NCBI GenBank assembly: GCA_949788275.1
Contig: OX460916.1
Location: 2,480,001-2,544,000, forward strand
Direction: 5' to 3'
Source of the DNA: Weeksellaceae bacterium
Lineage (GTDB): Bacteria; Bacteroidota; Bacteroidia; Flavobacteriales; Weeksellaceae
DNA length: 64,000 nt
The notes below the pieces were generated by a model that was not told where the DNA came from, did not search any database, and saw only the letters and a program-made list of their open reading frames with translations. Shown here in pieces: positions 6,454 to 58,832 of the stretch; the first letter of the stretch is position 1, and each line of letters starts with the position of its first letter. The position numbers were made by a program, and so were the translations under genes.

Positions 6454-6612
6454 GGGCGCCCCCTACGGGCCAGGCTATACGCTCTATCTCTGCTGCTTGA
6501 AAAATGAACTCCAGATCAACTTTCGGAAAAAGCAGCAGAGGATGCCGCTTCTATCCTTGTCGCAACGCTTCCCCATGAATATGTTCTTTGGCGAACATAT
6601 TCATGGGGAAGC
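6454..6612 (+). repeat. Dispersed structured intergenic repeat, copy R1
   Basis: Order of parts: GGGCG-CC...GGCTATACGC 5' module; an 11-bp inner stem CTCTGCTGCTT (6488-6498) / AAGCAGCAGAG (6530-6540); a GGATGCCGCTTCTATCCTTGTCGC box; then a 20-bp perfect outer stem (6567-6586 / 6593-6612) closing on TGTTC-N6-GAACA. The same order of parts recurs in copies R2-R5, with different stem sequences. Confidence 0.85.
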
Positions 6613-9530: not shown

Positions 9531-9658
9531 AAGCGAAGCGTTTTGCGGCAGGGATTGAAGCGGAAATCCTTTGCAACACATGCTGAATTTTCATAAAACC
9601 CTTTCGCTGCTTGTTGCAAAGATTGGGAGTGGAAAGCCCGGCGCGTAGCGGCCGCCCA
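9531..9658 (-). repeat. Dispersed structured intergenic repeat, copy R2
   Basis: Read on the minus strand: GGGCGGCCGCTACGCGCCGGGC 5' module (in parts), inner 9-bp stem TTTGCAACA/TGTTGCAAA (plus-strand 9570-9578 and 9612-9620), GGATTTCCGCTTCAATCCCTGCCGC box, then a short AAAACGCTTCGCTT tail instead of the long outer hairpin of R1, R3 and R4. Confidence 0.85.
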
Positions 9659-36651: not shown

Positions 36652-36807
36652 GGGCGGCCGCTTCGCGCCGGGCTATTCGCTCTATCTTTGCACAGGAAGA
36701 GGAGGGCACCTAAGAAAAAACAAAAATGTGCAAAGGATGCCGCTGCTATCCCTGCCGCAGAGCCAAAGCGCCTTGATGTTCTCGCGAGAACATCAAGGCG
36801 CTTTGGC
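36652..36807 (+). repeat. Dispersed structured intergenic repeat, copy R3
   Basis: GGGCGGCCGCTTCGCGCCGGGC 5' module (in parts); 9-bp inner stem CTTTGCACA (36686-36694) / TGTGCAAAG (36727-36735); GGATGCCGCTGCTATCCCTGCCGC box; then a perfect 46-bp palindrome (36762-36807) whose tip is TGTTC-TCGCGA-GAACA. The apparent open frame over this repeat is not a gene. Confidence 0.88.
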
Positions 36808-38705: not shown

Positions 38706-38847
38706 AACCATTTTCTTAACGTGTTCGATCAAGAACACGTTAAGAAAATGGTTCTGCGGCAGGGATAGAAGCAATTGTTTGAGCTTTTTGTGGAGTGGAA
38801 CGGAACGAAAAGCGAGTGCGGATAGCCCGGCGCGTAGCGGCCGCCCA
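38706..38847 (-). repeat. Dispersed structured intergenic repeat, copy R4 (contains an intact IS110 target site)
   Basis: Begins on the plus strand with a 21-bp perfect hairpin (38706-38726 / 38733-38753, loop GATCAA, tip GTGTTC/GAACAC), then GCGGCAGGGATAGAAGC (38756-38772), then a segment shared with R5, and ends with GCCCGGCGCGTAGCGGCCGCCC (in parts). The target core AT is at 38765-38766. Confidence 0.88.
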
Positions 38848-39716: not shown

Positions 39717-39827
39717 GGTATTTTGTTTAGACTATTTGTATTGATTGATCTATCAAAAATAAGGGATTAAAATTGCTTTGCCTAAAATTTATTTTTCAAA
39801 ATGGGTTGGTTTTTCAAAAAACCTTTT

Positions 39828-39835
39828 TACATTTG
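39828..39835 (+). promoter_or_regulatory. -7 box of the trp operon
   Basis: TACATTTG; predicted transcription start falls at about 39840, on or next to the ATG of the leader peptide at 39841. Confidence 0.65.
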
Positions 39836-39840
39836 TCCCA

Positions 39841-39903
39841 ATGAATTTATTTAGCACAAATAACTGGTGGTGGAATATCGAACAACAAAACGTTGGTTCG
39901 TAA
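39841..39903 (+). CDS. trpL: trp operon leader peptide
   Basis: 20 codons, MNLFSTNNWWWNIEQQNVGS, with three consecutive Trp codons at 39865-39873. It lies directly after a consensus -7 box and 25 nt before a perfect intrinsic terminator. Its composition can only be explained as a ribosome sensor of charged tRNA-Trp. Too short for standard gene finding. Confidence 0.88.
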   Translation: MNLFSTNNWWWNIEQQNVGS

Positions 39904-39927
39904 AAGCGCTATGTAGTTATATGTAGA

Positions 39928-39959
39928 AAGGCTTGTCGGAATCGACAAGCCTTTTTTTA
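39928..39959 (+). terminator. trp attenuator
   Basis: 11-bp perfect stem AAGGCTTGTCG (39928-39938) / CGACAAGCCTT (39943-39953), GAAT loop, T-run to 39958; 24 nt before trpE. A 1:2-type hairpin GAACAAC/GTTGGTTC spans the leader stop codon (about 39880-39900). I could not identify a clear antiterminator pairing. Confidence 0.88.
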
Positions 39960-57389: not shown

Positions 57390-57414
57390 AAGCGAAGCGT
57401 TTTGCGGCAGGGAT
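57390..57414 (-). repeat. Dispersed structured repeat, copy R5, left part (cut by the IS110 element)
   Basis: AAGCGAAGCGTTTTGCGGCA followed by GGGAT is identical to the start of copy R2 (9531-9555) and is broken off at the AT core (57413-57414). Confidence 0.88.
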
Positions 57415-57485
57415 TTCTATGGTTTCACCAAATTAAAAATGTTTTTTTTTTACGTTTAATGCTAGTTTGATCTTTTTCTCTTTTA

Positions 57486-58529
57486 TTAACAATGAATAGC
57501 CATTTCATTTTGCATTAATTTCGTGCTATATTTATAATCTTTGTCATAAAACCGATTATCTCTAATACATGCAAATACTCTCAATATTAACTTGTTACGA
57601 ATAGCATTAATGACCGACATTTTATTTTTTCCTTCTTCCGTTTTTCGTAAATAATATTCACGTAAATTCCCTTCACTCCGTATACAAGACATGGCTGCCA
57701 TATGCAAAAGTGTTTTCATCTGGTGGTTAGCCATTTTAGAAACTTTTGCCTTACTACTTACACTGCTCCCTGACGTATAGCTAAAAGGAACTACTCCTGC
57801 GTAACATGCAAATTTTTTAGCTTCCAAAAAAGCTGAAAACTCGTTCGTCATCATAATCATATTAGCTGCAGTTACGGGTCCCATTCCGACAACAGAGTTA
57901 ATAATTTTATATTGATTGAACATTTTTTCGTCCGACTTTATCAATCGGTCTATTTCCCGCTCAATACGTTTCAGATCAGTCTCCAGTCCATTCAATGTGT
58001 TTTCACACAGTGATTTAAGTAGAGCAAGATCTTCCTCGTTTTTATATTCTTTTTCACCTAAAGCTCCTGATAATTGTTTCTTTAAACTAACCAATTGCTT
58101 ACGTCTATTAATCAGTTCCTTTAACGTCTTAACTAGTGCTCGTGGTTCTTGATAAGCTTTATAATCATCCTTATTTTTATAGGCAAATTGAGCTATTCGT
58201 TGAGCATCTACTTTATCGTTTTTACCCCGTTTTAAACCTTGTGATTTTTTGATATGGTTTCCGTTTTCAAGCCATAAATTAAGGTTCAATAACTGAGCAC
58301 TATTGATTAAAAATTGAGTATAAACTCCTGTAAATTCAGCACAGACAATGCTCTGACTTAAATCTACACCTCTCTTATTTAGGGACTTAAAAAAGGTCTT
58401 AAGACTGGTCGGAGTATTATTGATTTGCTCATGAAATAAAAACGAATTCTGTTTATAAATAGCAATATCTAACGTTTTTTTAGAGATATCAATACCAATG
58501 TAATGCGTTACTTTTTCTATATTTGTCAT
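57486..58529 (-). CDS. IS110-family transposase/recombinase
   Basis: 347 aa. RuvC-like DEDD catalytic domain: D14 in IGIDISKK, E65 in CAEFTGVY, D105/D108 in KNDKVDA; coiled-coil linker (about 130-205, NRRKQLVSLKKQL...LKRIEREIDRLI); C-terminal Tnp domain with VVGMGPVTAA (213-222) and the serine-rich stretch YTSGSSVSSKAKVSK (251-265) where the recombination serine is expected. Full length with no frame breaks. It joins donor and target DNA under guidance of a bridge RNA. Confidence 0.95.
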   Translation of the reverse strand: MTNIEKVTHYIGIDISKKTLDIAIYKQNSFLFHEQINNTPTSLKTFFKSLNKRGVDLSQSIVCAEFTGVYTQFLINSAQLLNLNLWLENGNHIKKSQGLKRGKNDKVDAQRIAQFAYKNKDDYKAYQEPRALVKTLKELINRRKQLVSLKKQLSGALGEKEYKNEEDLALLKSLCENTLNGLETDLKRIEREIDRLIKSDEKMFNQYKIINSVVGMGPVTAANMIMMTNEFSAFLEAKKFACYAGVVPFSYTSGSSVSSKAKVSKMANHQMKTLLHMAAMSCIRSEGNLREYYLRKTEEGKNKMSVINAIRNKLILRVFACIRDNRFYDKDYKYSTKLMQNEMAIHC

Positions 58530-58559
58530 ATCTTTTATGATTAAGATTACATTTTAAAC

Positions 58560-58724
58560 ACTTTCAATTCTCTGATAATAGGTCTTTCCTAAATTTCTAT
58601 TTGAAGCTTGTTTAAAAAACTAGTAAAGGATTAAATCCCTGCATAAGTCTTAAAACTTGGATAGAAGCTAAAAGCGCCTTTACTAGTTGTAATCTTGATT
58701 AAACAATACTCTAATTTATTAATC
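58560..58724 (-). ncRNA. IS110 bridge RNA (target-binding and donor-binding loops)
   Basis: Read on the minus strand: a 5' stem GATTAA/TTAATC; then an 11-bp stem ACTAGTAAAGG/CCTTTACTAGT (plus-strand 58619-58629 and 58677-58687) enclosing GCTTCTATCC (58668-58659) and GCAGGGAT (58642-58635), separated by an AAGT/ACTT mini-hairpin. These are the two halves of the occupied target GCTTCT-AT-CCCTGC. A second loop holds ATAGAAAT (58600-58593), matching the IS end CCATAGAA-AT, around a TAGG/CCTA hairpin. Target loop before donor loop is the known IS110 order. The right donor guide is not clearly resolved. Confidence 0.82.
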
Positions 58725-58749
58725 TTTTTTATTTATACAAACCTAAGAG

Positions 58750-58832
58750 ATAGAAGCAATTGTTTGAGCTTTTTGGTGGAGTGAAACGGAACGAAAAGCG
58801 AGTGCGGATAGCCCGGCGCGCAGCGGCCGCCC
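58750..58832 (-). repeat. Dispersed structured repeat, copy R5, right part
   Basis: Continues copy R5 after the IS: AT-AGAAGCAATTGTTTGAGC, then a segment near-identical to R4 (38765-38847), ending in GCCCGGCGCGCAGCGGCCGCCC (in parts). Confidence 0.88.

Follow-up and report, generated by a model that had tools for sequence, protein, structure and literature searches.

Bridge RNAs of the IS621 type, the insertion of IS110 elements in dispersed repeats and a sigma-70-like promoter that forms across the IS621 junction have been described (Durrant et al., 2024; PMC11208160). ISEc21 and IS1111 elements are guided by a seekRNA (Siddiquee et al., 2024; PMC11187229), and ISPa11 and ISPpu9/10 land in REP (Tobes and Pareja, 2006; PMC1525189). 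Flavo-1 (RF01705) is among the candidate structured RNAs of Weinberg et al. (2010; PMC2864571); a further report finds its matches in sense and antisense and offers, where it deals with them, no real clue to function (PMC9723704). A limited literature search brought up no study of bridge RNAs of IS110 elements in Bacteroidota, and we found no literature pairing Flavo-1 with IS110.

The window analysed here, a 64,000-nucleotide stretch of the genome of a Weeksellaceae bacterium (3.34 Mb, one contig), carries on its minus strand an IS110 element of 1,335 bp between cores (Table 1). As in IS621, a predicted non-coding RNA lies in the long left end, with a target loop followed by a donor loop; the left guide would pair with the bottom strand and the right guide with the top, a short core lies within the pairings, a promoter is predicted across the circle junction, and dispersed repeats serve as sites (PMC11208160). 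In contrast to IS621, the target is Flavo-1 or a variant rather than REP, and the joined ends have the form TTG-N20-TAnnTTTG rather than that of a sigma-70-like promoter (PMC11208160). RNA-guided target choice and natural reprogramming among relatives are features shared with the seekRNA systems, the targets of which differ; the main text of that paper does not contain the string 'Bacteroid' (PMC11187229). The use of intergenic high-copy repeats as landing sites recalls ISPa11 and ISPpu9/10, although the hosts and the repeat family named for these belong to other groups (PMC1525189). An earlier sequence-only reading of the locus had implied novelty for RNA-guided repeat targeting by IS110, which was already in print (PMC11208160, PMC11187229, PMC1525189). 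The mechanism is known; the guide address, the Flavo-1 target and the circle-only promoter look new for this bacterial group. We conclude that the element very probably moves by RNA-guided site-specific recombination, with a bridge RNA aimed at a block of Flavo-1 and its variant.

Table 1. Features of the window element, its target repeat and the second IS110. Positions are those of the window unless marked as genome positions.
Feature	Position	Strand	Basis
IS110 element interior, core excluded	57414..58748	-	eight genome copies with identical interiors
IS110 recombinase, 347 aa	57486..58529	-	PF01548 E 3.3e-18, PF02371 E 3.6e-21
Putative core TC, left junction (GA on +)	58749..58750	-	placed by comparison with relatives; ATC ambiguous here
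Putative core TC, right junction	57412..57413	-	junction sequences
Predicted left target guide GCTTCTATC	58660..58668	-	9/9 match to left target
Predicted right target guide GCAGGGA	58636..58642	-	7-nt complement of TCCCTGC
Predicted left donor guide ATAGAAAT	58593..58600	-	8/8 match to right end of element; next base, second of core, mismatched
Predicted right donor guide AGAGA	58569..58573	-	complement of TCTCT at left end
Target-loop stem, 5' arm	58677..58688	-	12-bp complement; helix covaries in relatives
Target-loop stem, 3' arm	58618..58629	-	12-bp complement; helix covaries in relatives
Putative -7 promoter half TAGGTTTG, first bases of left end	58738..58745	-	sequence pattern
Putative -33 promoter half TTTG, right end	57429..57432	-	20 nt from -7 half once ends are joined
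Interrupted repeat, left part (Flavo-1-like variant)	58749..58832	-	no Rfam match at E 1
Interrupted repeat, right part GCGGCAGGGA	57404..57413	+	junction sequence
Empty target site, other copy of variant repeat	38756..38772	+	GCGGCAGGGATAGAAGC; no Flavo-1 match at E 10
Flavo-1 (RF01705) copy, one-mismatch target site	36662..36760	-	Rfam match and site scan
Flavo-1 copy, one-mismatch target site	9543..9647	+	Rfam match and site scan
Flavo-1 copy, two-mismatch (of 17) target site	6464..6565	-	Rfam match and site scan
Second IS110, copies L209-L213	genome 598046, 1301812, 1394342, 2556904, 3074488		

Junction sequences, genome copies and the uninterrupted site, which is present where the earlier reading had placed it, confirmed its proposal of an IS110 insertion into a dispersed repeat; the span that it gave to the element, 57390..58832, took in flanking repeat beyond the interior and the core. 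Eight copies of the element were found in the genome, all with the same interior over 1,335 bp and all at the same single point of the repeat in the same orientation. Because the interiors are identical, the element has probably been active recently. Insertion was scarless at a short core, with no longer target duplication, in all eight copies (overlap ATC). Spread of the copies through homologous recombination or gene conversion among repeats, rather than by transposition, is extremely unlikely; the identity of the copies over 1,335 bp and the presence of repeats on their flanks would suit such a process, but L001-L004 and L005-L008 are flanked by repeat forms that clearly differ, and all eight copies have exact ends. 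When the eight insertion sites were joined, none was crossed by an ATG-started ORF of more than 84 aa.

The recombinase that would carry out RNA-guided transposition exceeds the Pfam cut-off in both domains, and its DEDD residues (D14, E65, D105 and D108) are invariant in an alignment of 10 proteins. The non-coding left end of the element, at 219 nt, is longer than the right end (72 nt). Relatives were found by an alignment-based scan; a protein-only scan of genome contigs gave none. Outside this genome, the closest recombinase was 45% identical among 320 family genomes and 48% identical in the best 80 loci from named genomes, a set that may omit the window's own species. No plasmid relative exceeded 41% identity among the 15 matches listed. 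The right-end junction had eight exact matches in the 320 family genomes, all of them in this genome, and a single one-mismatch match in each of nine others.

Guides in the predicted bridge RNA follow the order LTG-RTG-LDG-RDG. Within the element, GCTTCTATC, GCAGGGAT and ATAGAAAT are single-copy words confined to the 5' non-coding end; when this end was base-shuffled 200,000 times, GCTTCTAT arose 451 times, GCAGGGAT 99 times and both together never. The earlier reading had described 8-nt target guides that include an AT core. Both halves do match, with lengths of 9 nt on the left and 7 nt on the right once the core is taken as TC, and the T that follows the right guide belongs to a 'GATT' run found in many relatives. 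A donor loop matching the element's own end had also been noted, and it holds for 8/8 positions of the right end. Relatives that end in TCCTT have AAGGA at the position of the right donor guide.

Guide-target covariation was assessed among relatives. The ends of 46 element copies from this and 16 other genomes were defined, and 17 representative types were used; near-duplicates, L057 and L070 (similar to L066) were dropped, and L087 and L088 are absent from the parsed 46 copies. The left flank of L057 lies within the bridge-RNA region of its own other copy, in a tandem or nested arrangement. Best site-loop matches summed to 238 for true pairs, as compared with a maximum of 217 in 200,000 permutations. 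The right guide matched a mean of 6.71 of 8 positions (5.09 off-diagonal) and the left guide 7.29 of 9 (5.74 off-diagonal). Left guides were weak (5-6 of 9) in six of the 17 types (L051, L063, L064, L067, L069 and L083); L065 alone had a weak right guide (5 of 8). Guide placement in the loop was near-constant (27-32 and 51-54) in 10 types; in the others one or both guides were shifted or had their best match elsewhere, the latter being the case for the left guide of L063 and L064 and the right guide of L065. L058 and L059, which are 98.4% identical, differ in both left guide and left site and have right guide ATTCTGA and site TCAGAAT; in L060, which shares 89% identity with L058, the right guide is AAGCTGA and the site TCAGCTT. 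Donor guides likewise followed the ends of their own elements, with AGAGA/TCTCT here and AAGGA/TCCTT, AAAGGC/GCCTTT and AAAGAT/ATCTTT in relatives. Right-donor pairing reached just 4 of 6 in 5/17 types (L062-L066), and the left donor guide mismatched the second core base in 17/17.

A wider test used loci from other named genomes, all Bacteroidota by record titles; the guides were sought within fixed intervals, 28 nt for one and 24 nt for the other, positioned relative to the donor word. Of 80 loci, 38 were usable; 20 had no recognised left end and 22 no donor word. For the 35 distinct loops the observed sum was 471, whereas 100,000 permutations averaged 357.8 and reached 399 at most, and either side alone lay above all 20,000 permutations. 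The loops represent fewer than 35 independent events, since they have 27 distinct sites and since L161 and L064 of the 17-type set are one locus; at least three whose left end looks misplaced (L136, L180 and L187) were retained. The covariation in 17 types and 35 loops supports the earlier proposal that this RNA programs insertion into the repeat family: relatives keep the stem while guide and target change together, which is not the pattern of a conserved stem and a lost match that would have refuted it. Were the recombinase protein to recognise the repeat sequence or a DNA hairpin, the RNA matches would be by-products of past recombination. All eight sites do lie within structured repeats, and the best relative among the best 80 loci is only 48% identical, so that the protein may have a specificity of its own. 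Recognition by protein is nevertheless very unlikely, as guides vary with targets on a conserved scaffold in 17 + 35 element types, and the two repeat forms differ in the middle while the guide-matched block is common to both.

Within the bridge-RNA mechanism, the position of the core was examined. On the minus strand GCTTCTATC abuts TCTTAGG at the left junction and CCATAGAAATC abuts CCTGCCGC at the right. Since ATC is common to both junctions, the window element alone does not distinguish AT from TC. Two multi-copy relatives (L051-L056 and L071-L075) have an overlap of TC and no more, and the genomes that carry them also contain their uninterrupted sites; this points to a TC core. Right guides of TC types terminate in GA, and in two outlying kinds the core position is GC or AT, with corresponding guides. 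Left and right junction dinucleotides are equal in 12/17 types and in just 4/35 loops of the wider set, where the left junction mostly has GC and the right TC, so that in that set the two junctions do not fully share a core dinucleotide. The second base of the core position is common to both junctions in 16/17 types and 33/35 loops. The earlier reading had an AT core, which the ATC overlap allows and with which the right guide could pair one more base (GCAGGGAT). The bridge-RNA mechanism with such a core is unlikely, however, because the relatives L051-L056 and L071-L075 overlap exactly in TC and a core one base upstream is unable to explain the sharing of the second base. From these comparisons the core of the window element is likely to be TC, C being the constant part. 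A TC core would differ from that of IS621, which is CT.

The stem reported around the guides was present, at 12 bp instead of the 11 bp first given. In an alignment of 13 left ends, 17/19 predicted pairs retained pairing despite changes on both sides, and the covariation score was 0.707 as compared with 0.262 for shuffled and at most 0.225 for slid versions, a slide control that favours the structure because it was derived from the same 13-end alignment. Among the five covariation measures, that for further pair types did no better than shuffles (28 versus 27.9; 298 of 500). The target-loop stem covaries; support for the donor loop amounts to three pairs. The single-sequence fold of the left end was unremarkable (z -0.81), as was that of the second IS110 described below (z -0.90). 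Single-sequence folding being unconvincing, the structure rests on covariation. An Rfam search of the window gave no match to a bridge-RNA family.

The predicted target for recombination is GCTTCTATCCCTGC. Left flanks of the eight copies read GCTTCTATC in four, GCTTCAATC in two, and GCTCCTATC and GCTGCTATC in one each, and the opposite flank is TCCCTGCCGC in every copy. Over the 14 nt compared with the guides, four occupied sites were perfect and four had one mismatch; none of the eight copies was in an unmatched site. A scan of the genome for the 17-mer with up to three mismatches gave 212 empty sites and, for the reversed control, four, bearing out the suggestion that many sites may exist; the 14-mer occurs in 15 perfect and 73 one-mismatch copies. 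Occupied sites match the guides better than empty ones do. In Fisher tests, which combine the site lists from the 14-mer and 17-mer scans, the 14-mer was perfect in 4/8 occupied versus 15/212 empty sites (p=0.0023) and had at most one mismatch in 8/8 versus 88/212 (p=0.0011); among sites with at most one mismatch, it was perfect in 4/8 versus 15/88 (p=0.047).

The target repeat is Flavo-1 or a variant or relative of it, an identity that the earlier reading had missed, although the dispersed repeat that it took as the target is real. Three Flavo-1 copies in the window exceed the Rfam cut-off and contain the target site with one or two mismatches. Genome-wide there were at least 150 Flavo-1 matches, and of the 150 scored 141 were over the cut-off. 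The family of Weinberg et al. (2010; PMC2864571) was matched at four of the eight sites of the element, three of them above the cut-off: sites L006-L008 score over it although interrupted, and L005 gave a match below it (36.7 bits). Sites L001-L004, the window's copy included, belong to a repeat variant with no Rfam match at E up to 1, which has both end blocks in common with Flavo-1 and a different middle. Thirteen congeners have 4-22 Flavo-1 matches each, as compared with at least 150 here, and 0-6 copies of the 14-mer with at most one mismatch, as compared with 88 here. These counts indicate that the target has been amplified in this genome.

By the proposed mechanism, excision would yield a circle in which the right end, the TC core and the left end abut. 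The joined ends would form a promoter, TTTG-N20-TAGGTTTG, driving the non-coding 5' end and the recombinase gene. A bridge RNA with GCTTCTATC and GCAGGGA in its target loop and ATAGAAAT and AGAGA in its donor loop would then act with the recombinase to join the circle to GCTTCTA-TC-CCTGC, the conserved block of Flavo-1 and its variant that is abundant in the genome. Ends, copies, sites, guide-target covariation, stem covariation and promoter geometry were read from the sequence; RNA expression, circle formation and catalysis we infer.

The joined ends of the window element show the Bacteroidota-type pattern. TTTG at -33 is a promoter element of Bacteroides. In a flavobacterium, sigma A has TAnnTTTG as its -7 box (PMC9723704). 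Among distinct joined junctions, 15/19 had TTG and TAn(n)TTTG at 18-23 nt, as compared with 51/9,500 shuffles, 21/7,735 internal windows and 0/45 integrated left ends; the pattern was framed after this first junction set had been seen. The strict form, TTTG/TAnnTTTG, was present in just 5/19 junctions, including that of the window element. In all 38 further junctions (35 distinct), TTG preceded the -7 TA by 19-22 nt, nearly always by 20, and in integrated ends it did so in 0/38; only the TTG half is independent in this set, since the -7 half had been used in choosing the loci. TAnnTTTG itself occurred in 26/35 distinct further junctions. The circle junction would reconstitute a Bacteroidota-type promoter, and a limited literature search found no description of this form of circle-junction promoter.

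A second IS110, with a protein of 362 aa that is 25% identical to the window recombinase over 284 residues, has five copies in the genome. All five lie in the other conserved block of Flavo-1, GGG-CT-AT(A/T)CGCT, and their sites all match Flavo-1 below the cut-off. Its left end contains AACCGGGCT, which matches two sites at 7 of 9 positions and three at 6 of 9, and ATATGAG, which matches its own end at 7 of 7; in the right target guide just 5 of 8 positions matched, and a left donor guide could not be clearly discerned in this left end. All 13 IS110 copies found in the genome are in the Flavo-1 family or the variant. A broader reading, for which we consider the case evenly balanced, is that Flavo-1 is an amplified DNA landing pad and not only an RNA gene, that the guides of Bacteroidota IS110 elements track the amplified repeat of their genome, that two unrelated IS110s converged on two Flavo-1 blocks, and that the activity of relatives is gated by a circle-only promoter of Bacteroidota type. 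The idea of abundance has an exception: the site used by the G148, G049 and G026 elements is common in G157 (27) and G212 (51), the sampled elements of which carry other guides.

Probably active, the window element offers a bridge-RNA system whose guide code can be read, a set of natural reprogrammings and a predicted promoter of the host's type. Since its targets are numerous and the eight occupied ones lie outside long ORFs, it is a possible starting point for genome engineering in Bacteroidota, and it offers a handle on Flavo-1.

A perfect hairpin with arms of 12-24 bp was present at most 70 bp from one repeat end in 11 of the 27 copies that could be located among 42 loci tried (L009, L011, L012, L015, L016, L018, L097, L099, L108, L115 and L116). 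The arm sequences are mostly unrelated, and controls gave 0/27 at 500 bp away and 0/540 in shuffles; these hairpins may be terminators or something else. In a related IS110 group (L083-L086, L089 and L090) the right flanks read ATGTTAG and adjoin paired-arm repeats that by eye resemble attC. The window also contains a Bacteroid-trp leader (RF01692) at 39821-39937, which scores over the cut-off.
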